From assembly GCA_948435975.1 (NCBI GenBank), contig CAOJHG010000007.1, positions 1-16,466 on the forward strand: 16,466 bases of DNA, read 5' to 3'. Origin of the DNA: an uncultured Oscillibacter sp. GTDB lineage: Bacteria > Bacillota > Clostridia > Oscillospirales > Oscillospiraceae. Below the pieces are notes generated by a model. That model was not told the origin of the DNA, ran no database searches, and worked only from the letters and a program-made list of their open reading frames with translations. The position numbers and the translations under genes were made by a program. Shown piece after piece: positions 379-16,466 of this stretch (position 1 is its first letter; every line of letters begins with the position of its first letter).

Positions 379-420
379 TCCTCCCTGCCTCACATCAGAA
401 ACAGAAAGAAGGAATTCCCC

Positions 421-1579: not shown

Positions 1580-1590
1580 ACTTTCTCACA

Positions 1591-1625: not shown

Positions 1626-1629
1626 AATA

Positions 1630-1676
1630 AGAAAGACAAAACACACCCCCCACTCGCTCCAGCGGCGAATGGGGGG
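1630..1676 (-). terminator. rho-independent terminator of the noncoding RNA
   Basis: On the minus strand a strong hairpin pairs CCCCCCA (1676-1670) with TGGGGGG (1652-1646). Four further pairs follow one mismatch, around a 7-nt loop. The sequence after it is TGTGTTTTGTCTTTCTT. The stem is fully positioned to end a transcript that starts near 1961. Confidence 0.8.
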
Positions 1677-1961: not shown

Positions 1962-1967
1962 GTTTAG

Positions 1968-1996
1968 AATATACAACAATCTCTCCGTTTTGTCAA
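1968..1996 (-). promoter_or_regulatory. strong sigma-A-type promoter for the noncoding RNA
   Basis: On the minus strand a perfect -35 TTGACA (1996-1991) is followed by a 17-nt spacer and a -10 TATATT (1973-1968). The sequence upstream of the -35 is A/T-rich (AAAATTGTATAAAAG), as in UP elements. The predicted start is the A at about 1961. It is the closest match to consensus in the window and fires into a region without a protein gene. Confidence 0.85.
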
Positions 1997-2059
1997 GAGC
2001 TTTTATACAATTTTACACTTTCCACAAACGCCAAACGATTACCCCTGTCAAAATGCACA

Positions 2060-2099
2060 GTGTATAAAACAGGGCGGCGCATCCGAAGACACACCGCCC
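2060..2099 (-). terminator. rho-independent terminator of the ABC-SLH operon
   Basis: Beginning 27 nt after the SLH stop codon, the minus strand folds GGGCGG (2099-2094) onto CCGCCC (2077-2072). Six inner pairs (with G-T wobbles) are capped by a TTCG tetraloop. TGTTTTAT follows. A UUCG-capped 12-bp stem is a very stable terminator. Confidence 0.85.
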
Positions 2100-2125
2100 C
2101 GCTCAGCAAAGCAGATTATTCTAAC

Positions 2126-4375
2126 TCAGCCCTTGACCTCAATGGCCCGGATCACACCGTCGTCGCTGGCATACAAATCCGCCGAGGCCGCATACGCATG
2201 AGCCGCGTCCAGACTGATCCATGCCGCAGTATCATGATTGAAGCAGATCACGTCGCTGGCAACCGTGTAGCTCCGCCCATTCACCGTCACGACGCTCTGA
2301 CCGCTCCAAGCCGTGTTTGGTACTGCAGCCAGCTTCTCCAGCTCCCGCAGAGAAGCAAAGCCGACGCCGCTGCTGTCGCTGGTGGCCATAACGAAGGTGC
2401 CGCCGGGGATGTCGCTCCGCAGCCGGAACGGGCCCATCCGGTCCTTCCCGTTGTACACCGTCATATAGTAAGAGATCTGGTCCGGACTGCTGCCTTCCAT
2501 CGTCACAGACGTCCGGCCATAAATCACGTTCCCGTTGTTCACGCCGCCCAGGACCAGGATATCCACCCGGTTTGCCCAGTTGAGGTGCGCGTAGCTGATT
2601 TGGGAAGCCGGAATCGTACCGCCGCCCAGGTCGCTGAAGCTGATAGGTTTCAGGCCCTCCACGCCGTACTCGAATACCGTCACCGTCTCTGCCAGGCTGT
2701 TGGTGCCCAGCTTCCGGGTGCTCAGGTCCAACGCGCCATTTACGCCGCCGCCCAGCCGTGCCAGGCCAATGGCGCCCTTGCCTTCAGAGGACACCTTCAC
2801 CAAACGGCCCTGCATCAAGCCGCTTTCCGTCTCGCTCAGGTTCACACGGCCCTCGATGGTAATACCGCACAGCAGGTTCACCTTAGCGCTGCTGGTAGAC
2901 ACGGATTCCACAAGGCCCAGCACATTCGCCGCAGCCCCGCTGGTCCCCGCCTTCACCGCGCCTGCAACCTGGTTATTCTCCGTCAGAAGCAGCGTGATCT
3001 GGTCCCCGGGACGGAACCGGGAAAGGGTCGCCTGAGCCGTGGTCAGCACCGGGAATTCATGTCCCAGGACCACGATGGAGGTAGGCTCCGTGGGATTCGG
3101 CGTACAGCTCTCGTAATAGCCTGTCAGCCGGTTGTCACACACGCGGATGGTGTTGGTAGCGCTGGAATAGGTCGCCACATCGTAGGGCCGCATGTCAGAC
3201 GCCTTGGCCGTAGACCCGTTCTTTACGATGGTATACCCGCCAGCGCCGCCGGTCAGCGCCTCAAAGCCCTTGGCGGAACCCTTCTCGTAAACAATAACGG
3301 CCTCATTGGACACCGAGCCGCCGCCCACGAAAATAAATTCCACATTGCTGGCCGACCCCAGATACAAGGTGATGGACGTGCCAGGATTCAGCCACGTATA
3401 CACCTCGCTCCACTTCTGCTCCTTGTTGTTGTAGTAAACACTGGTATCCGCAGCAACCGCGTACTTCGCGCCGCTGGTATCCGTAATCTGGAGCTGGCCC
3501 GCGCTGGAAAGGATAACACTCCGGCTGGTGCCCTTAGCGTTGGGCAGGAAGGTCAGCACTCTCTGTCCCTTCATGACCAAGGTGCCCTTGTAGCCGTTGA
3601 AGCAGCCGTTGGAAACCTTATCATCCACCATCTGTAAAATTTCCCCGGAGGAAAGCTGGAGCGAGGTCTCTTTCCCATCCGGTCCCTTGGCGTTGGAGGA
3701 AACGATCATCACATTGTCCCGCAGCGTCACATCCAGGCCGGTGAGGAAGCTGCCGCCGCCCTTTCCGTCCTCGCCGCTGCTATTGTCTGCCCGCAGGAGG
3801 TTCACGAAAAGCTGCGCGGCCTCCTTCCGGGTCAGGGGGGCGCTGCCGTGGGACATATCCAGACCGTCCATCAATCCTATGGAAGCAGCGGCGGCAAGAT
3901 AGCTGTCCGGCCATACGCCGCCGACGTTTTTATCCTCATACCCCAGGACCCGGAGGAGAATCGTCACCGCCTGTCCCATGGTTACGGTGCGGTCTGGATA
4001 GAATTTCCCGTCCGCATAGCCGGAAATGACGTTCCTCCCCTTGGCGGCCATATTGATATAAGCCGCCGCCCAGTGGGAGGGTTTTACATCAGGGTATACG
4101 GTCACAGTCCGGTACAGTCCCAGCTCGTCCTCAGCGTCCAGGGCGCAGATGACCATTTTGCAGAACTGGGCCCGGGTCAGTTGGGTGTCCGGGCGGAAGG
4201 TTCCGTTGGAATACCCGTCCAGCACGCCCATGAGCCGCAGGGTCTCCACAGACATGATAAGGTTTGCGTCCGATACGTCGGAAAAGCGGTTGGTTGGAGC
4301 CGCCGCCGCTGCCGGGAGGACCAGCAGACACGTCATCACACCCGCCAGCAGCAGGGATAGCAGTCTTTTTTTCAT
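2126..4375 (-). CDS. SLH-domain surface protein
   Basis: This 749-residue exported protein is predicted to be held on the cell surface through S-layer-homology domains that bind secondary cell-wall polymer. A Sec signal peptide (MKKRLLSLLLAG..., with cleavage likely in PAAAAAPTN near residue 26) precedes three SLH repeats. These lie at about residues 31-80, 93-146 and 154-195, with the typical GYSNGTFRPD, HWAAAYINMA, GYADGKFYPDRTVT and LTRKEAAQLFVNLL elements. Residues 200-749 are rich in beta-type, Gly/Ser/Thr/Val sequence with no enzyme motif I recognise. The ATG at 4375 has GGGAG about 8 nt upstream. The gene starts 29 nt after the permease stop with no terminator between, so it is the last gene of the transporter operon. 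A structural S-layer role or a role tied to the exporter are both possible. Confidence 0.85.
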   Translation of the reverse strand: MKKRLLSLLLAGVMTCLLVLPAAAAAPTNRFSDVSDANLIMSVETLRLMGVLDGYSNGTFRPDTQLTRAQFCKMVICALDAEDELGLYRTVTVYPDVKPSHWAAAYINMAAKGRNVISGYADGKFYPDRTVTMGQAVTILLRVLGYEDKNVGGVWPDSYLAAAASIGLMDGLDMSHGSAPLTRKEAAQLFVNLLRADNSSGEDGKGGGSFLTGLDVTLRDNVMIVSSNAKGPDGKETSLQLSSGEILQMVDDKVSNGCFNGYKGTLVMKGQRVLTFLPNAKGTSRSVILSSAGQLQITDTSGAKYAVAADTSVYYNNKEQKWSEVYTWLNPGTSITLYLGSASNVEFIFVGGGSVSNEAVIVYEKGSAKGFEALTGGAGGYTIVKNGSTAKASDMRPYDVATYSSATNTIRVCDNRLTGYYESCTPNPTEPTSIVVLGHEFPVLTTAQATLSRFRPGDQITLLLTENNQVAGAVKAGTSGAAANVLGLVESVSTSSAKVNLLCGITIEGRVNLSETESGLMQGRLVKVSSEGKGAIGLARLGGGVNGALDLSTRKLGTNSLAETVTVFEYGVEGLKPISFSDLGGGTIPASQISYAHLNWANRVDILVLGGVNNGNVIYGRTSVTMEGSSPDQISYYMTVYNGKDRMGPFRLRSDIPGGTFVMATSDSSGVGFASLRELEKLAAVPNTAWSGQSVVTVNGRSYTVASDVICFNHDTAAWISLDAAHAYAASADLYASDDGVIRAIEVKG

Positions 4376-4404
4376 AATTTTTCTCCCAAGTCAAATTTTT
4401 ACCG

Positions 4405-5675
4405 TCACTCTGCCCGCAGGGCCTCCACAGGCTGGAGGTTTGCGGCTTTGATGGCCGGATAGCATCCGAAAATCAACCCCAGCAGGACCGAAAGTCCAAA
4501 GGCGGCGCCTGTCACCGGCGGCGAGGGATATATGGTCGTGCTGAAAAGAATATTTCCCAGAATCAAACAGCCGCCAGTGCCAATCAATATCCCGATTATG
4601 CCGCCGATGCCGCAGAGCATGGCCGCTTCAATCAGGAACTGGGTTACAATGCTGCTCTTCTGCGCTCCAATGGCCCGGCGAATACCAATCTCCCTGGTGC
4701 GCTCTGTAACTGTAACAAGCATAATATTCATGATGCCAATACCGCCAACCAGGAGGGAAATCGCCGCCACGCCGCCCAGGACGCCGCCTATCAACCCCAT
4801 CTGCTCATTCACATAGTCCATGTTCTGGCTCTCCGGCTGGACCCGGTAATCGCTGGTATTCTGGTCCAAAAGCCCCTTCAAAAAGCCGTCCAGTTGGGTG
4901 ACGATCTCATCCATCTTCATGGCGTCCTTCGCAACGACAATAAACGTGCTGTCGCTGTCGTCGGCCCCGCCCAGAATCCGGCGGGCCGTATAGGGAATCA
5001 ACACAAAATTGTCCAGCGTACTCTGTGACGCTCTTTCCTCACTGAGCCGGGAGGCATATACGCCAATCACCTCAAAATTCTGATTGTTCAGTTGTACTGT
5101 CTGCCCCACCGGGTTTGCGCTGCCAAAGAATACCTTCGCCGCCTGATGCCCAAGGACCACCACCTGATTGTAATTCTCAATGTCCAGATAGCTCAGGTCC
5201 CGTCCCTTCGCCATCTTCAGATTGCTGCACGCCGAATACTGGTCGCTGCCATAGTAAAAACTGGGCGGAGCGCTGATCAGATTTACGCCCATCTCGTCCC
5301 ACTCATAGCTCATGTTCGCGGAGGACGTCGTACCATAAACCATCGTCGCGCTGCAATAGGCCTGCGGCGTCACTCCCGCAACCAAATCCTTCATGCCGTT
5401 GCAGTATTTGTAGATATCGGGAAAGTAGTCCTTTCCCGCCGGGACCATGTTGCCCTTATCATCCGTGGTCCACACATAGTTGTAGACATTCACCGCAATA
5501 CGGTTGGTCCCCATCGCCTCAAACTGCTCCATGGTCTTTTCGGCAAAACCCATGATGGCGGATACAATGGTCATGACGGACGCGATGCCGATAATGATGC
5601 CCAGCATGGTAAGGACCGCCCGGCCCTTCTTGCCCCAGATGGACTTCCAGGCCATTTTCACTGCCTGCCGGATAT

Positions 5676-5679
<4 letters not shown>
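4405..5679 (-). CDS. MacB/FtsX-type ABC transporter permease
   Basis: This 424-residue membrane subunit of a tripartite-like ABC exporter has the MacB/YknZ architecture. One N-terminal helix (about residues 21-45, within RAVLTMLGIIIGIASVM) is followed by a large extracytoplasmic domain (about 46-290). Three C-terminal helices come next, preceded by the conserved VTERTREIGIRRAIGA cytoplasmic segment. The protein ends in the family-typical NLQPVEALRAE. The start is TTG at 5679, chosen for an AGGAGG 9 nt upstream; no in-frame ATG fits. The start overlaps the ATPase stop by 4 nt (TTGA), which points to translational coupling. That coupling is in question because the ATPase frame is broken upstream. 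Family members export peptides, lipoproteins or antimicrobials, or act mechanically on the envelope; the substrate here is unknown. Confidence 0.92.
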
Positions 5680-6357
<678 letters not shown>

Positions 6358-6361
6358 GGCA

Positions 6362-8029
6362 TCAGAACCCATAGGAGTTGGAAATCTGCATCTGGGTGAA
6401 GACCTCGGTGCCATCCTCCACTCCGGACTTGATTTCCACATAATAATTATCGGAAATGCCGATCTCTACCTCCACCGGCCAGAAGCCCTCCGGGATCATC
6501 TCGTCAACTATGACGCCCTCCAAGGCATTGTCCGGCCGGTCGCCCTTCACATACACCACGGTCTTGCTCTCGCCGTCCTCCGTGGAGACGTTGCGCACAC
6601 ACTGAAGCGGCACGACCAAGCAGTTGTCATTCTCGCTGGCGGTAAGGTTGTAGTTGATGTAGCTGTTGACCTGGAGGCTTTCGTCCATATTGTCCACAGA
6701 AATGACCATGGGATAGGTCGCCACGCCGTTGTTGATGGTGCTGGAAAGGCTGACGCTCTCCACCGTTCCCATGGCAGGGGTGCCCCACTGGTCCAGATTC
6801 ACCATCATGCCCGGCTTGACAGCGCTCACATTCCGCTCGTCCACGGTGGCGTTGACGATGAGGGAGGAGGTGTCGGAAATGGCCGCCACCTCGTCGCCGG
6901 GCTGGATGGTCAGACCGATGACCTTGCCGCTAATAGAGGCCACAGCGTTGCAGTTCGCCAGATTCTTTTCGGCGGTCTCCAGGGTCTTCCTGGCCTCCTC
7001 CAGACTCTGCTGCACGGTGAAGATCTCCGCCTCGCTGTCCTCGCCGTCGATGCGCACCAGCACCTGTCCGGCGGAGACTTGGAGGAAGTTCACCAGGGAG
7101 CTGGAAATCACGGTGCCGTTCACGGTGGATTTCAGCTCGCCGGTCCGGAAATACTCCAACTGGCCGGGCTCATAGGGATATACGATCTCCTCCCCCGCGT
7201 TCACGGTGGCGGAAGCCGTCATCTCCGCGCTGAGGGCCCCGTCGTTTGTGACAAGGATATCCGCAGAAAAGAGCTTCGTCCCCTCTGGCGTAATGCGGCT
7301 GACCATATGCACCGCTTCCACCGTGCCGGTAATGGAACTCATAAGGGCGGGGATGGACACCTCCACGCTCTGCCCCTGGTAAACCATATCCTCATAGGCA
7401 TAGCTGTAGTATTGGGTCAGGCGAAGCTGAGTATCGTCCGCCAGGGTCGCCACGGTCTGCCCCTTGGAGATGGTATCTCCGGGGTTCAGAACGACAATAT
7501 CCATCAGCTTGCCGGAGTAGCCCGCCGCCAGATTCAGTCCGGCGATATCCTTCTGTAATGCCGCCAACTGCTTCTCGTAACCCAGCACGTCCTGCCGGGC
7601 CTTGTCCACAGCGGTGCGGGCGTCGTCAGAGTCGATGATAAACAACTGCGTTCCAGCGGTCACGGTGTCGCCCTCTGCTACCAGGACCTCCTTCACCGTG
7701 CCCGTCGTGGCGATGGTGATGGTCTCGCTGTCCTTGGCTTTCGTGAGGCCGCTGCCCTCCACGGTAGAGGAGATGGCGTCGTAATGCACCACATCCACCA
7801 TGGCTTCCGTCTGCTGTTCGCCCCCCTGGTTGTCCAGGAAATACTTGACGCCGAACGCGACTCCTGCCAAAATCAGGAGGAAGACAAACAAACGTACAAT
7901 TTTCCGCCGCCGCTTTCGGGGCATCCCCTTCCATTTTTTCCACAGGGAGCTTTTTTCCTTCTTCTGCTCAGCGGGCGGAGACTGCTGAACGGAGGCTGCC
8001 GGCCCAGTTTTATCCATGACTTCAGACAT
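6362..8029 (-). CDS. HlyD/MacA-like membrane-fusion (adaptor) protein
   Basis: This 555-residue periplasmic-adaptor-type subunit belongs to the ABC exporter. An acidic/basic cytoplasmic tail (residues 1-43, with a KWKGMPRKRRRK cluster) precedes one transmembrane anchor (about 44-63). The extracellular part contains two successive lipoyl/hairpin modules. The first has TGTVKEVLVAEGDTVTAG followed by a short coiled coil (KARQDVLGYEKQLAALQKD). The second has VNGTVISSS...VSAGQVLVRID followed by QQSLEEARKTLETAEKNLAN. Beta-barrel segments and a C-terminal membrane-proximal domain follow. The start is ATG 8029, with AAAGGAG 8-9 nt upstream; the frame is open further upstream, but without a ribosome site. 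It is first in the operon and stops 4 nt before the ATPase start. In Gram-positive relatives (YknX type) such proteins assemble with an ATPase and a permease without an outer-membrane channel. Confidence 0.88.
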   Translation of the reverse strand: MSEVMDKTGPAASVQQSPPAEQKKEKSSLWKKWKGMPRKRRRKIVRLFVFLLILAGVAFGVKYFLDNQGGEQQTEAMVDVVHYDAISSTVEGSGLTKAKDSETITIATTGTVKEVLVAEGDTVTAGTQLFIIDSDDARTAVDKARQDVLGYEKQLAALQKDIAGLNLAAGYSGKLMDIVVLNPGDTISKGQTVATLADDTQLRLTQYYSYAYEDMVYQGQSVEVSIPALMSSITGTVEAVHMVSRITPEGTKLFSADILVTNDGALSAEMTASATVNAGEEIVYPYEPGQLEYFRTGELKSTVNGTVISSSLVNFLQVSAGQVLVRIDGEDSEAEIFTVQQSLEEARKTLETAEKNLANCNAVASISGKVIGLTIQPGDEVAAISDTSSLIVNATVDERNVSAVKPGMMVNLDQWGTPAMGTVESVSLSSTINNGVATYPMVISVDNMDESLQVNSYINYNLTASENDNCLVVPLQCVRNVSTEDGESKTVVYVKGDRPDNALEGVIVDEMIPEGFWPVEVEIGISDNYYVEIKSGVEDGTEVFTQMQISNSYGF

Positions 8030-8063
8030 GTGCGTATACTCCTTTTTGTTGGTCCGAATTTTC

Positions 8064-8088
8064 AAAGCCCGTAGGAATTGCGGGCTTT
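8064..8088. promoter_or_regulatory. inverted repeat in the leader of the adaptor gene
   Basis: An 8-bp perfect inverted repeat AAAGCCCG / CGGGCTTT with a 9-nt loop lies 35-59 nt upstream of the adaptor start. Neither side has a proper T-run, so it is more likely a leader hairpin or operator than a terminator. It lies downstream of the candidate promoter and would be in the transcript. Confidence 0.45.
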
Positions 8089-8103
8089 CTAACTGTATCA
8101 CCT

Positions 8104-8132
8104 ATGCTAGAACAGTTCCGCTTGTAAAACAA
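8104..8132 (-). promoter_or_regulatory. candidate promoter of the ABC-SLH operon
   Basis: On the minus strand TTGTTT (8132-8127) and TAGCAT (8109-8104) are 17 nt apart, about 75 nt before the adaptor start. The match is weak at both hexamers. Imperfect direct repeats of about 11 nt (GCGGAA(A)CTGTT, at 8156-8145 and 8121-8111) flank the -35, which would fit an activated promoter. Confidence 0.3.
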
Positions 8133-8370
8133 CAACAAAACGGTAACAGTTTCCGCAAATAGCCTTTATTTTCTATGACGAATCAGCCGTCCAAAAGGTT
8201 TCAGGAAATTTTGCCCAAATCCCACGGCGCGGCTTCTACTTTTTTCACCAAAATGACAGGATGGAAATCAGCCTTCCTCCCACAAAGACAGGCCCCCTTT
8301 CCAAACCATATGAACGAGCTTCCCAAAAGAGTCCAAAAACCAGCGCTCCTGCCAAATTTCCAGACTCAGC
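8133..8370. other. intergenic stretch without a recognised feature
   Basis: Between the adaptor leader and the TRAP operon terminator about 240 nt hold no credible gene. Frames that cross it are antisense extensions over the TRAP permease gene and have no ribosome site. Apart from one copy of the direct repeat at 8145-8156, I see no further structure. Confidence 0.5.
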
Positions 8371-8403
8371 TAAAAAACCCGCCCCAGAGAAACCAGGGCG
8401 GGC
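8371..8403 (-). terminator. rho-independent terminator of the TRAP operon
   Basis: On the minus strand CCCGCCC pairs with GGGCGGG around an 11-nt loop and is followed by TTTTTT, 18 nt after the permease stop. It is a textbook intrinsic terminator. Confidence 0.9.
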
Positions 8404-8420
8404 AAAAGAGGCGGAAGAAA

Positions 8421-10472
8421 TCAGGCCTCAGAGGGTTTTGCTTTTTGGGCCATAGCTCTTTGATAGAACACAATCACGGCTACGACTGCCAGGCCCACAA
8501 CATCCGTAATGGAGCCGGGAATCATCATGCACAGTCCGCCCACGGCCAGCACCACCCGCAGCAGTACAGGAATCTGCCGGAACAGGAACCCGTTCAGGGA
8601 AGCCGCTACGCCGAAAATGCCCAGCAGCGCACTAATGACAATCTGCACCACCTGGAAGGGCGTCGTACCATCCACGAACAGCATAGCGGGCGTATAAGCG
8701 AAGATATAGGGCACAATAAAGGCGGCAATGGCGAGCTTTGTCGCATTGATGCCCGTCTTCATGGGGTCCGACTTTGCGATGGCACTGCCCGCGTAAGCCG
8801 CCAGGGCTACCGGAGGCGTGATATCAGCAACAATGCCAAAGTAAAACACGAAGAAATGGGCTGGAATCTTGCCAATACCCAGTTGAATCAGGATGGGCGC
8901 ACAGGTAGAAGCCATGATGCAGTAATTGGCGGTGGTTGGTACGCCCATGCCCAGAACGATACAGCACAGCATGGTCAAGAACAGCGCAATGAACAGAGAC
9001 AGCGCCGGAACCGGAATCAGGTTGCTGATGTTGATAACGCCGTTAATCAGCTTGGAGGCCAGACCGGTGACGGTGATGCAGCCCGACACAATACCCGCCA
9101 CAGAGCAGGCTACAGCCACAGTGATGCAGCTCCGTCCGCCCGCCTCCAGGGAGTTGACGATCATAACAGCGGTATCCTTCACGAAGCCCCCCGACGCGGA
9201 TGCGCCCCCGCTTTGTTGGGCGCGGCTGTTGGCGAAGATATGGGGAAGACTTACCAAAATCGCAAGAACGATGGCAATGGAAGCGGAAAACTGGAGCGTC
9301 CGCGCACCGGTCGCCACCATCCAGACCAGCACCACCAGAGGCAGAAGCAGGTAAATACTGCGGATCAGAATGCCGAATTTAGGCAGTTGTTCCCGGGGGA
9401 TACCCTTCAGATTCAGCCGTCTGGCCTCCAGGTGAACCGCCATAAAAATACCCGTGAAGTACAGAAGAGCGGGCAGAATCGCTTTCACGGCCACACTGGC
9501 ATAACTGGTGTCCATATACTCTGCCATGAGGAACGCCGCCGCGCCCATGATGGGTGGCATGATCTGACCGCCGGTAGAGGCTGCGGCTTCCACGGCGGCG
9601 GCAAACTCGCCCTGATAACCGGTGCGCTTCATCATGGGGATGGTGACGGAGCCGGTAGTAACCGTGTTGCCAACTGAGGAGCCGGACACCATGCCGCAGA
9701 GAGCGGAGGAGATTACCGCCACCTTCGCGGGACCGCCGGAGGTGCTGCCCGCCAGTGAATTCGCAAGGTCGATAAAAAAGCTGGAAATTCCCGTCCGCTC
9801 CAGGAACGCGCCGAAGATGATGAACACCGCGATAAACTTTGCGCAGACCTGAACAGGCGTGGCCATGACGCCGGAGGTGCCGTAGAACAAGGTATAGACC
9901 ACGCGGGCCAGGTTCTGTCCGCTGGCAAAGGTATAGACCAGCAGCACGCCCGCCACGCACAGTATAGGAATGCCCACACAGCGCCGGCACAGCTCCGCAA
10001 GGCACAGCACGCCAACAATACCCAGGATGATATAGAACCAAGCGCCGTCAATTGCGCCATCGCCCCAGGGATTGATTTTGGCGGCGCTGGTAATCAGCCT
10101 TGCCAGCTTCCCATAGTTGATGCAGTAATAGAAGAAAGAGCCTGCCCCCAGGGCCATCAGCACCCAGTCATACCAGGGCATGGCGTTGGGCTTCACATGG
10201 TCTTTCCGTGCGGGATAGGTGAGATAGCCCATGACGATGATGAGCCCCAGGAAGGAGCTGAGCCGGATGGGCATGTCCCAGTTGCAGCGGAGGGTCAGCC
10301 AGATACAGTATACGGAAAAGATGGACATGACGATCCGGACCGCCAGCTTAGGGGTTCCCTCCCAAATACGGGTTGCAGACTCCCGGTCGTACTTCCGCAT
10401 GACCTCATCCATCTCTGCGGCGCTGCCGACATCCACGTCGGGGATGTGGTTCTTCTTGTCTTTCTCGCTCAT
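8421..10472 (-). CDS. TRAP transporter fused permease (DctQ-DctM type, TAXI class)
   Basis: This 683-residue, highly hydrophobic protein is the membrane part of a TRAP transporter. Such transporters use the Na+ or H+ gradient to import a solute delivered by a binding protein. The N-terminal third (after a soluble, charged first 40 residues) contains several helices of the DctQ-like part. The rest is the DctM-like part, with helix-hairpin elements such as AFLERTGISSFFIDLANSLAG, VSGSSVGNTVTTGSVTIPMM, ASTGGQIMPPIMGAAAFLMA, GMGVPTTANYCIMAS and VADITPPVALAAYAGSAIA. The fused layout is typical of TAXI-type systems. The start is ATG 10472, with AAGGAGG 8 nt upstream; the open frame extends further upstream but overlaps the TAXI stop. 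It lies 131 nt after the TAXI gene, across a pair of strong hairpins. The substrate is not evident; C4-acids or glutamate/2-oxoglutarate are reported for some relatives. Confidence 0.93.
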   Translation of the reverse strand: MSEKDKKNHIPDVDVGSAAEMDEVMRKYDRESATRIWEGTPKLAVRIVMSIFSVYCIWLTLRCNWDMPIRLSSFLGLIIVMGYLTYPARKDHVKPNAMPWYDWVLMALGAGSFFYYCINYGKLARLITSAAKINPWGDGAIDGAWFYIILGIVGVLCLAELCRRCVGIPILCVAGVLLVYTFASGQNLARVVYTLFYGTSGVMATPVQVCAKFIAVFIIFGAFLERTGISSFFIDLANSLAGSTSGGPAKVAVISSALCGMVSGSSVGNTVTTGSVTIPMMKRTGYQGEFAAAVEAAASTGGQIMPPIMGAAAFLMAEYMDTSYASVAVKAILPALLYFTGIFMAVHLEARRLNLKGIPREQLPKFGILIRSIYLLLPLVVLVWMVATGARTLQFSASIAIVLAILVSLPHIFANSRAQQSGGASASGGFVKDTAVMIVNSLEAGGRSCITVAVACSVAGIVSGCITVTGLASKLINGVINISNLIPVPALSLFIALFLTMLCCIVLGMGVPTTANYCIMASTCAPILIQLGIGKIPAHFFVFYFGIVADITPPVALAAYAGSAIAKSDPMKTGINATKLAIAAFIVPYIFAYTPAMLFVDGTTPFQVVQIVISALLGIFGVAASLNGFLFRQIPVLLRVVLAVGGLCMMIPGSITDVVGLAVVAVIVFYQRAMAQKAKPSEA

Positions 10473-10504
10473 TGGCGACGCCTCCTTAGAAATCAAAATA
10501 AAGC

Positions 10505-10581
10505 CCTTGCCGTATTGAAGGGGCAGAATCCACGCCGCCCTTTCAACACGGCAAGGACCGCAGCCATCAGCGGCCCTTGCC
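10505..10581 (-). promoter_or_regulatory. intercistronic pair of mutually exclusive hairpins
   Basis: Between the TAXI and permease genes the minus strand contains two strong hairpins that share one arm. Hairpin 1 (10581-10550) pairs GGCAAGG with CCTTGCC plus an inner CCGC/GCGG. Hairpin 2 (10556-10505) uses the same CCTTGCC, as CCTTGCCGT with ACGGCAAGG, plus TTGAA/TTCAA and GGGC/GCCC. It is followed by the T-rich GCTTTATTTTG. Hairpin 2 looks like an attenuating terminator and hairpin 1 would compete with it. Simple mRNA stabilisation of the binding-protein transcript is the plainer reading. Confidence 0.6.
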
Positions 10582-10603
10582 AGATAGACTTTAATGCTGG
10601 AAA

Positions 10604-11674
10604 TCAATAGGTCCCGGCGGGGATGGTGTACGCGGAGTAGAAGGGAGAGCTCTCCAGCAGGGCGCTGATGTGCTCATCATCCAGGCCGACCAGATAGGTG
10701 GGCTTAGACAGGGCCAGGTCGCTGATGGCCGGGGTGGGTGCGCCTGCCACGATGAAAGCCGCGTCGATCTTGCCGTCCTTCAGGCTGTCGGCACTGTCGC
10801 CGAAGCTCTGGAACACGGGCTGGATGTCGTCCTCAGTCAGGCCGTAAGCGCCCAGAACATCGATAGCGTTGAAATGCACGCCGGAACCGGAAGCGCCGAT
10901 AGAGACGATTTTGCCCTCCAGGTCGGCCACAGACTTGATGTCAGGGTTGGTGGTAGCAATCTGAACCTGCTCCATATACAGGGAGGCCACAACGGAGAAG
11001 TTGGTAACAGGGCTGTCGAAGAGTCGCTCGCCGTTGTAAGCATAGCTCATCACGTCAGACTGAACAAAGGCAAGCTGTACGTCTCCGGCGGTCAGGTCCT
11101 CCACGTTGGACTGAGAGCCGTTGCCCTCCACCGCAGTAACAGAGGAACCAGAGTTATTGGAAACATAGCTGGCCAGCACGCCGCCGAAAGCGTAGTAGGT
11201 GCCGGTAGAGCCGCCGGTGGTAAAGGTCAGGGACTTGGAATCACCTGTGCCCGCGCCCTCCTTCACAGCGGCAACCTCAACGCCCTGCTCCTCAAAATAC
11301 CGGGCCGCGCCGGGGTGATAGGGCACGGAGGTCACGGAAGCGGCAAAGTTCAGGTCCAGCTCGCCGCCCTTGGCATGCTGCTCAGTAATCGCGCTGGTGT
11401 TGTTGAAAATGGTGGAGACAAAATTATATACGTCTTCCTCAGAAACATCGTCCCGGGCGATAACCACCGCGCCAACAGCCACCGTATTGGTATCTACAGA
11501 GGCCGTGGAAGCGCCGCTGTCTCCAGCACTGCTGCCGGAGTCGCCGGAGGTCTGCGCACCGCTGTCGGAGCCTGCGCCGTCAGCCTGGCCGCTGGAGCCG
11601 GAATCGCCGCCGCAGGCAGTAAGCAGGACGGTCAGCATCAGGACCACCATCAGCAAAGACAAAATTTTCTTCAT
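10604..11674 (-). CDS. TRAP transporter TAXI solute-binding lipoprotein, apparently circularly permuted
   Basis: This 356-residue extracellular solute-binding lipoprotein would deliver substrate to the TRAP permease. A lipoprotein signal ends in LLTAC (Cys21), followed by a Gly/Ser/Asp linker to about residue 58. Residues 60-136 (TVAVGAVVIARDDVSEEDVY..., ...SVPYHPGAARYFEEQGVEV) match what is normally the C-terminal end of TAXI proteins. Residues 146-356 start with the normal N-terminal LTFTTGGSTGTYYAFGG and continue through GDVQLAFVQSDVMSYAYNG. They end abruptly at AYTIPAGTY, a motif that is normally followed by the TVAVGAV segment. The order of the two parts is therefore swapped relative to the family as I know it. 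The ATG at 11674 has AGAGG about 10 nt upstream. It is the first gene of the TRAP operon. Confidence 0.9.
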   Translation of the reverse strand: MKKILSLLMVVLMLTVLLTACGGDSGSSGQADGAGSDSGAQTSGDSGSSAGDSGASTASVDTNTVAVGAVVIARDDVSEEDVYNFVSTIFNNTSAITEQHAKGGELDLNFAASVTSVPYHPGAARYFEEQGVEVAAVKEGAGTGDSKSLTFTTGGSTGTYYAFGGVLASYVSNNSGSSVTAVEGNGSQSNVEDLTAGDVQLAFVQSDVMSYAYNGERLFDSPVTNFSVVASLYMEQVQIATTNPDIKSVADLEGKIVSIGASGSGVHFNAIDVLGAYGLTEDDIQPVFQSFGDSADSLKDGKIDAAFIVAGAPTPAISDLALSKPTYLVGLDDEHISALLESSPFYSAYTIPAGTY

Positions 11675-11729
11675 CCTCAAAAATCCTCTTTTCTTCAATT
11701 TTTGCAAAACGCTTTGCACCCACTCGCAT

Positions 11730-11758
11730 ATCATACCGCAACCCCCTTCATTTTTCAA
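11730..11758 (-). promoter_or_regulatory. promoter of the TRAP operon
   Basis: On the minus strand TTGAAA (11758-11753), a 17-nt spacer and TATGAT (11735-11730) form a good sigma-A-type promoter. Its expected start is near 11723, about 50 nt before the TAXI start codon. Confidence 0.8.
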
Positions 11759-12117
11759 GTATTTTTCTGAAATCTTTCCCAGCTTTTTGCAAGTTTCTTC
11801 GATTCATCCTGCATTTTTGGCAAATTCATGAAACCTGGCGGCCCCATTCCTGCAAAAAGCGGTCATCCTGCCCAAACGCTGCCAGCTTCTCTCTCGCCGC
11901 GTCAGTAAACAACTTTGGATAAGTTTGGGCAGCGCTGGGGACTTTTGGACCATCCTCCGCCCGTGCCGCCCCAAAACACAAGGCAGGCAAACACCGCCAT
12001 GGGGATGCTTCCGCTTTTTGCTTGTGCTGATTTCGCGGGAACGGCAAAAGCTAAGTCCGCCGGCGGAACGTGCAGAAAGGCGCTCTTCCGGCAGTTTGAT
12101 GGAAAGGGGTGATTTGA
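11759..12117. other. intergenic region with a possible decayed minus-strand reading frame
   Basis: About 360 nt separate the TRAP promoter from the divergent SpoIVB-like gene. No gene here has a proper start. On the minus strand, bases about 11938-11826 read like real coding sequence (VPSAAQTYPKLFTDAAREK..., ending GRQVS and TGA). The sequence just upstream reads as a hydrophobic leader (MAVFACLVFWGGTGG, from 12000) in a different frame. A remnant of a small secreted protein with a frameshift would fit, but this is speculative. No spoIVB promoter could be recognised by eye. Confidence 0.3.
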
Positions 12118-13149
12118 TTGTATGGACTTTCTCAAAGAGGAAAGCGGATGCTGCGGGGCGGGGCGGCATTCCTCCTGGCGCTGCTGCTGTGGAGTCCGCT
12201 TCCCGTCCGTGCCGCCGGGACTGTCGTGGACGATCTTCCCGCGTCCGGCACTCCCCGGATGCTGGTCCCGGTAGGTCACACGATTGGCATTAAGCTCTTC
12301 GCCCGGGGCGTGGTAGTGGTCAAGCTCACTGACGGCGGCACCCCTGCGCGGGAATGCGGCCTGCGCACTGGGGATATTATTCTGGAATGCAACGGCACCG
12401 CCGTCACCTCCTCGGAACATTTCCAGTCTCTCTTGCAGGAAAACGGAGACGGGGCAACAGACCTCCAGATCCGCCGGTCCGGGGACAGCATGACTTTATC
12501 GGTAGAACCAGAGCAGAATGAACAGGGCGTTTACTGCATCGGCGCGTGGATACGGGACAGCATGGCGGGCATCGGCACCATGACCTATTATGACCCGGCC
12601 AGCGGCGTTTTCGGTGCTCTGGGCCACGGCATTACGGACACGGACACCGCGCTGTTAATGCCTTTCTCCAATGGGTCCATCCTTCCCTCTACCGTAAAAG
12701 CGGTGAAAAAAGGGGAAGCTGGAGCCGCTGGAGAGCTGCGCGGGGATTTTGATTTGTCCAGCCAGTTGGGGGAGCTCTATTCCAACACTTCCAGCGGCAT
12801 TTTTGGCACCATGGATGAACCGGTCTCCCAGGGAGCGGCCCTGCCCGTGGGGAGCGCCCATCCCGGCCCGGCTGTGATTCGTTCCAACGTCCGGGGCGAC
12901 GAGGTGCAGGAATACCCCATTGAAATCCTGAGCGTGACAGACAACGCCTCTGACGGACGGGATATGGTGCTGTCCGTCACGGACCCGGCGCTGATTGAAG
13001 CTACCGGCGGCATCGTACAGGGCATGAGCGGCAGTCCTATTCTCCAGGACGGAAAATTTGTAGGGGCAGTCACCCACGTCCTTCTGAGCGACCCGACAAA
13101 AGGATATGGCATTTTCATTGACACCATGCTGGAAGCCGCCGGGAAATAA
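12118..13149 (+). CDS. spoIVB: SpoIVB-like sporulation serine peptidase
   Basis: This is a 343-residue S55-family peptidase. In Bacillus, SpoIVB is secreted from the forespore into the intermembrane space and cuts SpoIVFA, triggering pro-sigma-K processing. An N-terminal membrane/signal segment (residues 13-32) precedes a PDZ domain (about 59-130, with FARGVVVVKL, GLRTGDIILECNG). The peptidase domain follows, with GALGHGITD (His170), VTDPAL (Asp289) and GGIVQGMSGSPI (Ser304). The 15-residue Asp-Ser spacing matches what I recall for the Bacillus enzyme, so a His/Asp/Ser triad is inferred. At 343 residues it is shorter than Bacillus SpoIVB (about 425), mainly at the N-terminus. The start is TTG 12118, with GGGG 8 nt upstream; the next in-frame ATG is 12148. 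It is not followed by spo0A here, unlike the usual order. Confidence 0.9.
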   Translation: MYGLSQRGKRMLRGGAAFLLALLLWSPLPVRAAGTVVDDLPASGTPRMLVPVGHTIGIKLFARGVVVVKLTDGGTPARECGLRTGDIILECNGTAVTSSEHFQSLLQENGDGATDLQIRRSGDSMTLSVEPEQNEQGVYCIGAWIRDSMAGIGTMTYYDPASGVFGALGHGITDTDTALLMPFSNGSILPSTVKAVKKGEAGAAGELRGDFDLSSQLGELYSNTSSGIFGTMDEPVSQGAALPVGSAHPGPAVIRSNVRGDEVQEYPIEILSVTDNASDGRDMVLSVTDPALIEATGGIVQGMSGSPILQDGKFVGAVTHVLLSDPTKGYGIFIDTMLEAAGK

Positions 13150-13156
13150 GGAAAAG

Positions 13157-13185
13157 GAGGGGGACGCAGCAATCCCCCTCTTTTT
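13157..13185. terminator. bidirectional terminator between convergent genes
   Basis: GAGGGGG (13157-13163) pairs with CCCCCTC (13174-13180) and is followed by TTTTTC on the plus strand, ending the spoIVB-like gene. Read on the minus strand the same stem is followed by CCTTTTCC, so it can also end the transcript of the convergent membrane-protein gene, whose stop is at 13187. Confidence 0.85.
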
Positions 13186-13186
13186 C

Positions 13187-13513
13187 TCACAGGTCCTTGA
13201 TCCGCATTTTCTCCACCTGGTCCCGGACCCGCTGCTTTTCCCGTACCGCCCAGTAAACTGCCAGCAGCACCAGCGTTGGGACATTCCCCGTCAGCAGAGC
13301 CATCAGCACTGCCAGCACGTTCTGGGACACGCTTCCGGTATCCCTGATGTTCAGCACCAGCAGCAGCGCCCAGCAGAATGTCAGCAGCGGCAGCACCAGC
13401 CCCGGCCACCGGCTCTTCCGGCGGGACAGAAAGATTTGCAGCACCACGCCTCCCACCAGCAGCATCAGAAAAACCGTCAGGACCCCAATCAGCATTTTAG
13501 ATACAATAGCCAT
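13187..13513 (-). CDS. small three-helix membrane protein
   Basis: This 108-residue protein has three predicted transmembrane helices, at about residues 5-28, 37-55 and 66-89. They are separated by a basic loop (SRRKSRWPG), and the tail is short and charged (REKQRVRDQVEKMRIKDL). No enzymatic motif is visible. The ATG at 13513 has AGGAGG 8 nt upstream, inside the end of the DUF2089-like gene, whose stop is only 4 nt before this start. The two genes are therefore almost certainly coupled. The pairing of a small HTH protein with a small membrane protein suggests a regulator and its membrane partner, but I do not recognise the family. Confidence 0.75.
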   Translation of the reverse strand: MAIVSKMLIGVLTVFLMLLVGGVVLQIFLSRRKSRWPGLVLPLLTFCWALLLVLNIRDTGSVSQNVLAVLMALLTGNVPTLVLLAVYWAVREKQRVRDQVEKMRIKDL

Positions 13514-13517
13514 ATAT

Positions 13518-13811
13518 TCAGCCTCCTTTTTTTGTCTCACGGTACGCCTCAATCAAGAGCTTCGCCGTGTCAAAATCCAGCTTGTCATCCACCGCCAGCC
13601 GCTTCACCAGCGACACATAAGGATCTGCCTCCGCCTGCTCCGTCAACTGGATCTTCTGAATCAGCCGGTCCAGCCGGAGCCGCACGGTGGGGTAACTCAC
13701 GCCGTACTGCGCCGCCGCCTCCTTCAGAGACCCGGACGCCAGCAGGAATTTTTTGATGAAGGCCATATCCGCCTCATCCATCTCCGCCATCCATACCGGA
13801 ACCGTTTTCAT
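13518..13811 (-). CDS. DUF2089-like helix-turn-helix protein
   Basis: This 97-residue protein is probably DNA-binding. Its N-terminal half contains FIKKFLLASGSLKEAAAQYG followed by VSYPTVRLRLDRLIQKI (about residues 18-54). That is the helix-turn-helix pattern of DUF2089 proteins (ISYPTVR-x-RLD-x-LI). The zinc-ribbon that often precedes it in DUF2089 members is missing, so this is a short form. The C-terminal half (YVSLVKRLAVDDKLDFDTAKLLIEAYRE) is helical, perhaps for dimerisation. The ATG at 13811 is chosen for the GGGGG run about 8 nt upstream; an open frame further up overlaps the promoter. The dyad over the -10 of its own promoter makes autoregulation plausible. Confidence 0.8.
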   Translation of the reverse strand: MKTVPVWMAEMDEADMAFIKKFLLASGSLKEAAAQYGVSYPTVRLRLDRLIQKIQLTEQAEADPYVSLVKRLAVDDKLDFDTAKLLIEAYRETKKGG

Positions 13812-13836
13812 TTCCCCGCCCCCTTTTATATTATTA

Positions 13837-13865
13837 AGTATATTCTTTAATATTATAAAAGTCAA
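13837..13865 (-). promoter_or_regulatory. promoter with dyad for the DUF2089-membrane protein operon
   Basis: On the minus strand TTGACT (13865-13860), a 17-nt spacer and TATACT (13842-13837) form a strong promoter in a very AT-rich island. An inverted repeat TATTAA (13832-13837) / TTAATA (13847-13852), 9 nt apart, lies across the -10 and is a candidate operator. Confidence 0.8.
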
Positions 13866-13909
13866 GTTTTATTTTTATCTTATATAAAATTTAACAAAAG
13901 CCAGAGAAG

Positions 13910-13940
13910 CGCCTCCTCCAGACGGCGTCCAGAGGAGGCG
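13910..13940 (-). terminator. probable terminator after the 61-residue gene
   Basis: CGCCTCCTC (13910-13918) pairs perfectly with GAGGAGGCG (13932-13940), and an inner GAC/GTC hairpin makes the structure very stable. It starts 10 nt after the stop at 13950. The T-tract on the minus strand is poor (TTCTCTGGCTTTTG), so it may act partly as an mRNA 3'-end stabiliser. Confidence 0.55.
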
Positions 13941-13949
13941 TTTCCCCGC

Positions 13950-14135
13950 TCACATGATATGCTCTTCACAGAAATTGTCCACGACCCGGAATCCCATGTC
14001 CCCCGGGTCCGCAACACGGAATTTCGCCACGGTGACAGGGTCAAAGGCGGGACACAACCGCTTTTCCGGCTCCAGACGCAGGTTAGGCGTCCGGTCCGGC
14101 GTTTTTCCATTGATGGCTCTGTGATTTTCCGCCAT
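13950..14135 (-). CDS. small hypothetical protein (61 residues)
   Basis: This is a short soluble protein with no signal peptide or membrane helix. It begins MAENHRAINGKTPDRTPNLR and ends VDNFCEEHIM. I do not recognise it. Support comes from a GGGG ribosome site 8 nt before the ATG at 14135, a strong hairpin right after the stop, and a position 70 nt downstream of trkA on the same strand with no terminator between. In-frame ATG 14141 and GTG 14144 lie too close to the ribosome site. A cysteine and acidic residues near the C-terminus (CEEH) are the only notable feature. Confidence 0.5.
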   Translation of the reverse strand: MAENHRAINGKTPDRTPNLRLEPEKRLCPAFDPVTVAKFRVADPGDMGFRVVDNFCEEHIM

Positions 14136-14205
14136 GTTCATCACCCCGACGTCAGTATGCCCCGGGACGGGACAGGCTACACCCGGCGGTTTCTGGCGGG
14201 AGCGG

Positions 14206-14856
14206 TCAAATCTGGTTCATCAGACGGATGCCCGCCGTCTTGTCCCCGGCGATAATCAAATGCGCGTCCGCCTGGAACCGGTAGTCCGGACTCAGCAAAG
14301 GCTCCACCTCGTCTCCGTCCTTCACGCCCAGGATGTTCACATTGTACCGGCGGCGTACATCCATCTCAGCCACAGTCTTCCCCACCCAGGTTTCCGGCGT
14401 CTCCATTTCAAGGACCGCAAACTTCGGCGTCAGTTCAAAATAGTCAAAGGCGTTCCTGGCGGAAAAGCGGGTTGCCACGCGGTACGCCATATCCATTTCC
14501 GTATGCACCACATGATCTGCGCCAATCTTCCGCAGGAACTTGATTTGCCGCTCCTGATCCGCCCGGGCCACGACACATTTCGCCCCCAGGTCCTTCAAAG
14601 CGGCGGTGGCCTCCAGGGAACTCTGAAAGTCGTCCCGCACACAGACAAAGCACACGTCGAAATTCCGCACCCCCAGGGAGGCCAGCACCTGCTCATCCTG
14701 GCAGTCTCCCACACAGGCGGCGGTGGCCTGTCCAGCGATGCGGGCCACCCGTTCCTCCTCCTTGTCCAGTACCATGACCTCATTGCCCAGCTCCAGCAGC
14801 CGGGCCGTAAGGTTCCGCCCAAACCGTCCCAGGCCAATCACTAAAAACGATTTCAT
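14206..14856 (-). CDS. TrkA/KtrA-type potassium uptake regulator (RCK protein)
   Basis: This 216-residue cytoplasmic gating subunit binds nucleotide (NAD(H)/ATP class) and controls the K+ channel subunit TrkH/KtrB. The N-terminal RCK_N Rossmann domain shows VIGLGRFGRN (residues 6-15, GxGxxG) and an acidic Asp31 at the end of strand 2 (VMVLDKEEE). VGDCQDEQVLASLG follows, then KCVVARADQERQIKFLRKIGADHVV. An RCK_C (TrkA-C) domain fills about residues 140-216. The size fits single-RCK KtrA rather than the duplicated TrkA of E. coli. The ATG at 14856 has AGGAGG 6 nt upstream. It follows the trkH stop by 85 nt, so the two form one potassium-uptake unit. The C-terminal domain of KtrA proteins often binds c-di-AMP, but that is family knowledge, not seen here. 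Confidence 0.93.
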   Translation of the reverse strand: MKSFLVIGLGRFGRNLTARLLELGNEVMVLDKEEERVARIAGQATAACVGDCQDEQVLASLGVRNFDVCFVCVRDDFQSSLEATAALKDLGAKCVVARADQERQIKFLRKIGADHVVHTEMDMAYRVATRFSARNAFDYFELTPKFAVLEMETPETWVGKTVAEMDVRRRYNVNILGVKDGDEVEPLLSPDYRFQADAHLIIAGDKTAGIRLMNQI

Positions 14857-14941
14857 TTTCCGCCTCCTGATTCTCCGCACAACCGCAGCACGCGCACCCT
14901 ATACATTTCGTTATTTCGCAATAATATGATACAATATTCAA

Positions 14942-16261
14942 TCAGCCAATCAGAATTTTCTCTGGTACATTCCGGCACTTTGGCTGAGGGCGGTCTCTGG
15001 TGACTGCCATGGCCACCGACATGCTCCCCACCCGGCCAGAGAACATCAGCAACAGAATCGTCCACTGCGACAGCGCCGGAAGAGATGCTGTGATCCCCCG
15101 TGACAGCCCCACAGTGCCGATGGCCGAAACCGCCTCGAAAAGCGCGTCGTCCAAAGCGATGCCCTCCACACACAGCACCATGCACCCCGCTAAACACGCC
15201 ATAAGATACAAGCTGACCGAGGAATAGGCCTTGTGGATGGTCTCCCCGTCCAGCCGCCGCTGGAAGACATTCACATCCTCCTGCCGCCGGACCCGCGCCA
15301 GAGAGCTGAGGAGCAGAACAGACAGGGTATTGACCTTCACACCGCCGCCCGTAGAACCGGAACCCGCCCCGATAAACATAAGCACCAGCATCAAAAGGGT
15401 GCTGCTCTGACTCAGTGCCGCCTGATCCACCGTAGCAAAGCCAGCCGTCCGGGCCGTCACCGACTGAAACGCCGCCATCAGGCCCTTCTGAAAGCCGGAG
15501 GCCCCGGAAAAGGCATGGTCCCTCTCCAGGAGGTAGAACGCCGCCGCCCCTCCCGCATACAGAGCCAGCGTGAAGACCGTTACCAGCTTTGAATGCAGCC
15601 GCCAGCGCCGGAATTGAAGGCGATGGGTCAGCAGGTCGTCCCAAACCAGGAAGCCCAAGCCGCCGCAGATAATCAGCGCCATGACCGTCAGGTTCACCAA
15701 AGGGGACCCCGCCGCCGAAGCCAGAGAATCCCCGGTTCCAAAAAGGTCAAACCCTGCGTTGCAGAAGGCGGATATGCTGTGAAACACGGCCATCCACAGT
15801 CCCCGCCCCAAACCATACCGCGGGCAGAACCAAAACGACAGAAGCAGGACTCCCGCTCCCTCGCAAGCCGCCGTAACCGCCAGCGCCCGCCGCGTCAAAC
15901 GGACCACGCCCCCAAGCTGGAGCGCTCCTACGGTGTCCATCAGCACAGCCCGCCGGTGAAGCCCCACCCGCCGCCGCAGCAGCAGGGAAACCAAAATGGA
16001 GACCGTCATAAACCCCAGTCCCCCCACCTGAATCAAAAGCAGAATGACCCCCTGTCCAAAAGGGGAAAATCGGGTGGCGGTATCATACAGCGCCAGACCC
16101 GTCACACAGGAAGCCGAAGCCGCCGTAAACAGCGCGTCCGCAAAAGGAACCGCCTCTCCCGTCCGGGAAGCCCAAGGCAGGGCCAGCAACACGCCTCCGC
16201 AGAAAATCAAAACCGCAAAGCCGGCCATCAGGGTCTGGACCGCATTCAAACGCATACGCAT
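14942..16261 (-). CDS. TrkH/KtrB-type potassium transporter, membrane subunit
   Basis: This is a 439-residue K+ translocating subunit. Four selectivity-filter repeats are visible: ASCVTGLALYD, FCNAGFDLF, VTARTAGFATVD and AIGTVGLSRG, each with the conserved glycine. Between them lie hydrophobic helices and the gating-loop-like stretch FIGAGSGSTGGGVKVNTLSVLL. The start is uncertain. A GGAGG at 16276-16272 precedes three ATGs; 16261 gives 10-nt spacing and a KtrB-like N-terminus, while 16267 and 16270 would add two or three residues. The open frame continues upstream without a ribosome site and overlaps the promoter. It forms a pair with the RCK protein downstream. Confidence 0.93.
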   Translation of the reverse strand: MRMRLNAVQTLMAGFAVLIFCGGVLLALPWASRTGEAVPFADALFTAASASCVTGLALYDTATRFSPFGQGVILLLIQVGGLGFMTVSILVSLLLRRRVGLHRRAVLMDTVGALQLGGVVRLTRRALAVTAACEGAGVLLLSFWFCPRYGLGRGLWMAVFHSISAFCNAGFDLFGTGDSLASAAGSPLVNLTVMALIICGGLGFLVWDDLLTHRLQFRRWRLHSKLVTVFTLALYAGGAAAFYLLERDHAFSGASGFQKGLMAAFQSVTARTAGFATVDQAALSQSSTLLMLVLMFIGAGSGSTGGGVKVNTLSVLLLSSLARVRRQEDVNVFQRRLDGETIHKAYSSVSLYLMACLAGCMVLCVEGIALDDALFEAVSAIGTVGLSRGITASLPALSQWTILLLMFSGRVGSMSVAMAVTRDRPQPKCRNVPEKILIG

Positions 16262-16353
16262 AAACATCATACCTCCGGGGGCGAAACAAGGCCGATCCGA
16301 TTTCATACTCGCGGCATAGGGGTTTTTCCAATGATACCCGCCGCGCTCCTCTG

Positions 16354-16382
16354 ACCATACCACAAATCCTGGAAAACCGCAA
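16354..16382 (-). promoter_or_regulatory. promoter of the potassium-uptake operon
   Basis: On the minus strand TTGCGG (16382-16377), a 17-nt spacer and TATGGT (16359-16354) give a reasonable sigma-A-type promoter about 90 nt before trkH. The leader that follows does not show the conserved elements I know for the c-di-AMP (ydaO) riboswitch often found before K+ transporter genes. Confidence 0.6.
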
Positions 16383-16399
16383 CCCTTTCTCCGGCATCT

Positions 16400-16440
16400 A
16401 TAAAAAGTTCCGGCGCAGCTCTTCACCACGCCGGAACTTC
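16400..16440 (-). terminator. rho-independent terminator of the gene at the right edge
   Basis: An 11-bp perfect stem AAGTTCCGGCG (16405-16415) / CGCCGGAACTT (16429-16439) with a 13-nt loop is followed on the minus strand by TTTTT. It ends the transcript coming from beyond the window, just after a TAA at 16444-16442, and isolates the potassium operon from it. Confidence 0.85.
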
Positions 16441-16441
16441 T

Positions 16442-16466
16442 TTAAGCGTTGACTTCCATGCCAAGC
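16442..16466 (-). CDS. C-terminal end of an unidentified gene (partial)
   Basis: The last bases of the window read on the minus strand as LGMEVNA followed by TAA, two bases before a strong terminator stem. The placement makes it very likely that a minus-strand gene ends here. Seven residues are too few to identify it. Confidence 0.4.

Follow-up and report, generated by a model that had tools for sequence, protein, structure and literature searches.

Can a solute-binding protein be opened at one loop, joined at its old ends and still serve its transporter? This question is raised by a gene at positions 10604–11674 of a 16,466-nucleotide stretch of DNA, hereafter the window, from an uncultured Oscillibacter sp. 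(assembly GCA_948435975.1, contig CAOJHG010000007.1, positions 1 to 16,466). The gene encodes a relative of the TAXI-type solute-binding proteins of tripartite ATP-independent periplasmic (TRAP) transporters, in which the part that usually ends the chain precedes the part that usually begins it. We consider it highly likely that the product is functional and lipid-anchored, that it serves a TAXI-type TRAP uptake transporter as its solute-binding protein, and that its gene has been circularly permuted.

Segment order, junctions and predicted fold

The reading frame lies on the minus strand, from an ATG at 11674 to a final stop base at 10604, and is divided as follows (AF2, AlphaFold2; pLDDT, predicted local distance difference test).

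10604..11674, minus strand: circularly permuted TAXI-type TRAP solute-binding protein, 356 residues (profiles, solved chains, AF2 model)
11612..11674, minus strand: signal peptide, residues 1–21, with the motif LTAC, which we take to be a lipobox, and the presumed lipidation site Cys21 (sequence; AF2 helix 3–18)
11498..11611, minus strand: tether rich in Ser, Gly and Ala, residues 22–59, predicted to be disordered (pLDDT below 50 for residues 17–56)
11267..11497, minus strand: segment C, residues 60–136, the usual C-terminal end of TAXI proteins, with hinge strand 2 (62–74) and the closing helices of domain 1 (1us4 238–312)
11231..11266, minus strand: junction linker, residues 137–148, VKEGAGTGDSKS, from the old C-terminus to the old N-terminus (junction alignment)
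10607..11230, minus strand: segment N, residues 149–356, the usual N-terminal three quarters, with the rest of domain 1, hinge strand 1 (226–241) and domain 2 (solved chains, AF2)

The whole protein scores 264.5 bits against TIGR02122 of NCBIfam (curated cut-off 84.35) and 237.5 bits against PF16868 of Pfam (curated cut-off 27), each time with two matching stretches, the best of which pair residues 140–356 with TIGR02122 23–244 and residues 151–356 with PF16868 1–214. When the contigs were searched with TIGR02122, profile positions 23–247 matched at 10598–11257 and positions 247–320 at 11282–11506 of the minus strand; the two pieces lie in one frame in reversed order, 247–320 preceding 23–247. 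The seven distinct solved TAXI sequences all match residues 140/149–356 with their N-terminal part. A second stretch is present in six of them, 9ibp included (4ddd has a single one), and in the five alignments shown (1us4, 8u79, 9oz4, 8s4j and 9ibo) it pairs residues 59/62–132 with the chain part directly after the first. For 1us4, residues 141–356 align with 12–234 (E 2e-32) and residues 59–132 with 238–312 (E 8e-8). Such a two-block match is well outside chance. A preliminary description of this DNA, made from the letters, had claimed the reversed order at coordinates that proved right, with no strand stated (the gene is on the minus strand), and with segment limits accurate to a few residues; the profile comparison that it proposed gives matches in reversed rather than normal order, and the solved chains agree.

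The junctions tell the same story at the level of single residues. Normal-order relatives read '..YTIPAGTY-SGMTEDV-TTVAVGAVV..' and end in '..KYFAEKGITVPTK' or similar. The permuted proteins end in '..YTIPAGTY' or similar, their segment C starts near 'VDTNTVAVGA', and their junction joins '..YFAEKGxxVAxVK' to 'xGAGxGxxxxLTF'; in the spirochaete permuted proteins and in one further locus, L038, the C-terminus is three residues longer. Where the normal-order protein of locus L063 reads '..TIPAGTYSGMTEDVTTVAVGAVV..', the window protein has '..TIPAGTY*' and '..VDTNTVAVGAVV..'. Both ends of the present protein are thus neighbours in ordinary members and a linker lies between the old termini, as had been stated and implied, respectively, while the signal peptide with LTAC, read from the translation, bears out the earlier remark that the lipoprotein signal was kept in front. 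With the old termini joined, the new termini adjacent in the parent and each segment present once, the protein has the make-up of a circular permutant. A TAXI protein of normal topology is rejected because the order of segments N and C is reversed, and the product is therefore classed as the permuted variant; its sequence confirms it as a circularly permuted TAXI solute-binding protein.

Among 20 aligned junctions, picked to represent 48 distinct ones, a V, an A-G and the G two positions on are invariant in the linker, and a K and the first G are kept in at least 90%; the most divergent is that of L020 (VAENAGKG). This conservation suggests a structural role for the linker.

The predicted fold is that of an ordinary TAXI protein with its elements in a new order. 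The model of a normal-order relative has long strands at 80–95 and 217–229, with a gap (206–216) between strands 200–205 and 217–229. The AF2 model of the permuted protein has a strand at 62–74, helices from 79–91 to 121–129, strands at 149–152 and 226–241 and a last strand at 346–351. The elements of the former return in the latter with lengths equal within one residue, and the element order of segment C matches that of residues 217–284 of the normal-order model, again with lengths within one residue. AlphaFold models the core confidently, and the blocks across residues 131–150 score 97 and 94. VcGluP is described in PMC11574862 as having hinge strands at 116–131 and 255–267, a domain 1 of residues 29–115 and 268–328 and a domain 2 of residues 132–254. 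By correspondence with it, the cut would fall where domain 2 gives way to the second hinge strand. After the signal and tether, the chain would then pass through hinge strand 2 and the helices that close domain 1, cross the glycine-rich linker to the opening part of domain 1, and finish with hinge strand 1 and domain 2. Of the two covalent connections that join the domains, such a permutation would sever one, leaving a single crossing, and would turn the split domain 1 continuous, so that domains 1 and 2 are each in one piece. It follows from this topology that the membrane tether would be relocated from the first strand of domain 1 to the start of hinge strand 2, and would probably enter from a different face.

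What could such a protein bind? In the portion of PMC11574862 at hand, all ligand contacts of VcGluP precede residue 204. Mapped through the solved-chain alignment, they correspond to the window protein as Y45–Y160, S75–S187, Q93–Q205, E125–E235, G156–G265 and G203–G311. These six residues of the window protein are identical in 61 of 61 permuted rows, and Y46–Y161 is kept in 59 of 61. Since all mapped contacts belong to segment N, the pocket should stay in one piece after permutation. The equivalents of Y45, S75, Q93 and E125, whose roles in VcGluP, like those of the other contacts, are taken from the same portion of PMC11574862, make up a glutamate-type set that is present in the window protein. 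Against this stand VcGluP S40, V44, H123, D157, Y200 and M201, which are replaced in the window protein and likewise in normal-order relatives; because six contact positions hold other residues, the ligand may differ from that of VcGluP. An amino acid of the glutamate kind is our best guess, and no more; a scan with Rfam for a riboswitch that might hint at the ligand gave no matches. The permuted protein would presumably bind its ligand, close around it and hand it over to the permease.

Occurrence, operon slot and lipid anchoring

The search for the same permutation in other genomes, which the preliminary description had called for, found it in many independent assemblies. Relatives were scanned with one genome per species, the best 80 of 462 confirmed relatives were taken, and each locus was typed by matching segments N and C separately inside one open frame. 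Thirty-nine loci are permuted (L001–L039), 40 are normal (L041–L080) and L040 is too short, a share that is no estimate of frequency because the loci were chosen as the most query-like. Of the permuted loci, 22 are labelled Oscillospiraceae, eight Spirochaetota and three Lachnospiraceae, and six bear no family; L006 lies on a 1.3 Mb scaffold of Oscillibacter sp. 1-3, which carries no label of a metagenome-assembled genome (MAG). Both segments are present in 138 loci overall, which divide into 61 permuted and 77 normal ones (48 and 63 non-identical ones).

Within the genus, a TIGR02122 search of 60 relatives found the permuted pattern, defined as an N part that runs to, or close to, a stop and has a C part shortly before it, in the genome of the window and in nine of the 36 others that belong to the same genus (G001, G005, G006, G015, G016, G031, G033, G034 and G036); G002 has only an N part ending in a stop, at a contig edge. 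This search is loose, and its weak rows were left unused because the control matched in 8 of 14 well-known genomes, in two of them above the cut-off. Taken together, 11 of the 37 genus genomes, own genome included, are permuted (G002 by inference) and at least 18 have a close normal-order gene (at least 60% identity over segment N, best locus per genome only), with zero overlap, for which a simple count that ignores kinship gives a chance of 9e-5. Distant TAXI paralogues do co-occur with the permuted gene, at 40% identity in G034, 38% in G036 and weaker in others.

In 400 genomes of the family, at least 114 match P0002 at 1e-60 or better and at least 20 rows, own genome included, align as one colinear stretch, these counts being lower bounds since up to five candidates per genome were scored; all 20 colinear rows are permuted, and the next ten are all normal-order. 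A junction profile at E 1e-8 found the own genome as the sole full-length match in 391 class-drawn and 299 phylum-drawn genomes. The permutation looks like a local rather than a widespread innovation, because these evenly spread draws gave no other full match. At E 1e-6, the 32 genomes of the genus to which G429 belongs gave one full-length match, in G429. This locus (L132:1414–2427) encodes a strongly diverged permuted protein with 56% identity and a linker of the same kind. Two partial hits of the junction profile, L144 and L146, were rejected as permuted, both being normal-order proteins.

Permuted and normal genes also share their surroundings. In the window the binding-protein gene is followed by two features.

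10473..10603, minus strand: 131-nt gap; a strong hairpin with a U-rich run after it resembles a terminator (z -3.42; 0 of 200 shuffles as stable)
8421..10472, minus strand: fused TRAP membrane component, DctM, 683 residues from an ATG with an AGGAGG site (PF06808, 295.2 bits)

A fused TRAP permease lies downstream in 36 of the 39 permuted loci, the remaining three contigs ending before it, and in 39 of the 40 normal-order loci. The adaptor or MacB-type genes that follow are common, partly or wholly, to the window and to normal-order L060, L062, L063, L066, L067, L070 and L078, some of the frames counted being antisense shadows; between the window and these seven loci, segment N is 66–69% identical. 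Because the flanking genes are common, the permuted and normal versions share one operon slot in Oscillibacter-type genomes. The hairpin between the binding-protein and permease genes is attenuator-like and would raise the binding protein over the permease.

By a simple pattern, a lipobox is present in 37 of 45 distinct permuted sequences with a readable start and in 60 of 62 normal-order ones (L037 and L109, with unreadable starts, were set aside; L011 and L035 are without an N-terminus). The eight permuted sequences without it are six spirochaete ones and L018 and L019. In these (L023–L027 and L030, from spirochaete MAGs, L018 and L019) the signal peptide has no lipobox cysteine, so they are probably not lipid-anchored. 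The idea that the permutation serves lipid anchoring or tethering is weakened by these eight sequences.

Elsewhere in the window, the ABC ATPase of a MacB-type operon (5676–6441, minus strand) is split into frames 6016–6441 and 5676–6005, so a frameshift in the gene or the assembly is likely. Upstream, on the opposite strand, 12118–13149 (plus) encodes a SpoIVB-type peptidase S55 with a PDZ domain, a sporulation protease.

Origin of the permutation and rival explanations

How did the reversed order arise? We propose that a tandem duplication with in-frame fusion was followed by loss of the outer parts, namely the N part of the first copy and the C part of the second; such a course would fit the junctions. 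The event may be placed in a gut Oscillospiraceae lineage, from which the gene would have passed to other gut and rumen bacteria, with later segment exchange between permuted and normal-order genes. In a tree of both segments, 41 of 42 permuted rows form one group with a Shimodaira–Hasegawa-like approximate likelihood-ratio (SH-aLRT) support of 80; not included in this tree are L081 and L082, which duplicate the window, and L040 and L083, which lack a pair of segments. A larger tree, from which 32 loci (near-copies, truncated or on long branches) and all those numbered L133 and above were dropped, groups 45 of 46 (SH-aLRT 98), and a tree of 54 of its 99 rows groups 22 of 23 (ultrafast bootstrap/SH-aLRT 83/84). 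The spirochaete rows form one cluster inside the main permuted group, a position expected for transfer from Bacillota.

One permuted row stands apart: L038 (5989–6996) clusters with the normal-order loci L044, L051 and L054 whether the tree is built on segment N (SH-aLRT 99), segment C (92), the permease (98) or both segments together (100/99). The single-segment trees additionally leave out L086, L087, L091, L092, L100 and L039; the permease tree leaves out the first five of these and permeases of up to 280 residues. The linker of L038, VKSGAGTGESRKL, is of the permuted type and of the same length as that of the window. It is identical to 55 permuted linkers at up to 10 of 13 positions (mean 7.6; a few shifted ones down to 1), compared with a best of 6 and a mean of 2.6 for 67 normal-order spacers. 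We favour the interpretation that L038 is a mosaic produced by segment exchange; a second permutation is also possible.

Several observations weigh against a single permutation followed by spread, or against the protein that it would have produced. The unity of the main permuted group is only moderately supported. The single-segment trees require four (N) and three (C) changes of type and do not fully recover the permuted group. In the clade test, carried out on the same 54 rows, a single permuted clade including L038 is rejected at p 0.0134 (approximately unbiased test), and it appears in 0% of 200 bootstrap trees. Neither a duplicated intermediate nor a leftover segment copy was seen in the open frames of 80 loci; among 146 loci, whose flanks reach up to 6 kb and are often shorter, one gave a second segment hit at E below 0.05 (0.041, normal-order L064, taken as chance). 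The packing of segment C on segment N is predicted from equal element order and near-equal lengths, and the aligners VIA-align and Foldseek retain sequence order.

It is possible, though on balance unlikely, that the same loop was opened by two or more separate permutations, one in the main group and another in the lineage of L038. The grouping of L038 with normal-order genes in both segments and permease and the rejection of one permuted clade speak for it, but L038 has a linker like those of permuted genes, and gene conversion on either side of a shared junction would account for this with only one permutation. If there were two, the loop would be a hot spot, or the rearranged form would be selected. 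A bolder version seems doubtful to us: that the loop was opened independently two or more times and that the cut link, with the tether at the hinge, has been favoured by selection, with hinge strand 2 directly exposed to tension from the membrane or to docking of the permease and the opening and closing of the cleft adjusted in this way. We regard it as improbable that segment C supplies the missing part of domain 1 in another molecule, to give a domain-swapped dimer on the membrane, an arrangement which the junction linker and free tether would in principle permit. The AF2 monomer is confident through the linker, as given above, and the linker is alike in sequence and length in the 20 aligned members, as expected for an intramolecular bridge.

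Finally, the window's genome consists of 376 contigs and is about 61% complete, so one might suspect a chimeric contig or a frameshift that reversed two pieces. The chance of such an artefact is practically negligible, given that the order, the cut site and a similar linker recur in dozens of other genomes and that the counted pairs are under purifying selection. The ratio of nonsynonymous to synonymous substitution rates (dN/dS) is 0.02–0.24 across those pairs, some of the ratios being rough because dS is high, up to 0.99 in segment C, which again counts on the opposing side. For the window against L111, L001 and L002 it is 0.055, 0.100 and 0.094 in segment C and 0.035, 0.094 and 0.134 in segment N (L112 gives the same figures as L002), and the linkers differ at one to three of 13 residues. 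Recurrence in other genomes and purifying selection rule out misassembly, a pseudogene and chance; the permuted protein is real and conserved, and very probably functional.

Comparison with known binding proteins

The permuted form is new within a known family, the TAXI proteins, to which the profile scores, the permease partner and the pocket residues assign it. Literature searches on permuted TAXI or TRAP proteins found none among the matches listed. To a family profile the permuted protein scores like any other member, and further permutants may go unnoticed for this reason. By structure and by sequence, the best matches of the window protein are TAXI proteins, which PMC11574862 places in Cluster F; no type I sugar-binding family is among the seven that Pfam lists for it, an absence that excludes nothing. 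TAXI-GltS BP0403 of Bordetella pertussis, as presented in the available part of PMC12344293, is likewise a lipid-anchored TAXI protein of unusual architecture, but has extra N-terminal domains and a different transporter partner; the string 'permut' occurs nowhere in the main text of that paper.

Circular permutation has been used in the laboratory to convert binding proteins into sensors. Natural, conserved permutation in binding proteins seems rare, and the nearest precedent that we found is TpMglB-2.

TpMglB-2 (Tp0684) of Treponema pallidum is described in the accessible part of PMC4990184 as a circularly permuted, two-lobed, tethered 'Type Ic' binding lipoprotein that binds glucose and changes shape, with relatives in treponemes and Gram-positive gut bacteria; its authors consider a possible link of the permutation to tethering. 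Like the window protein, it is a tethered, two-lobed binding protein that was circularly permuted in nature. Unlike it, TpMglB-2 has a Type I fold, works with an ABC transporter and belongs to another family. According to the same part of that source, it is also cut elsewhere: a lobe strand block is moved and a fourth cross-over added, and the moved part has 13% identity in the authors' attempted alignment.

The closest comparison remains that with the normal-order TAXI proteins VcGluP (8s4j/9ibo) and TtGluBP (1us4/8u79). They resemble the window protein in the sequence of both segments, the predicted fold and the key ligand contacts; a fused TRAP permease adjoins normal-order genes as well, and a lipoprotein signal is found in most close relatives (60/62). 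The window protein differs in its reversed segments, its new linker, the predicted cut of one inter-domain link and the tether on hinge strand 2. Normal and permuted versions that occupy the same slot with the same type of partner form a matched natural pair, in which one can test how hinge connectivity and tether position affect ligand affinity, the speed of closing and transfer to the permease: a natural experiment in how binding proteins tolerate rewiring.
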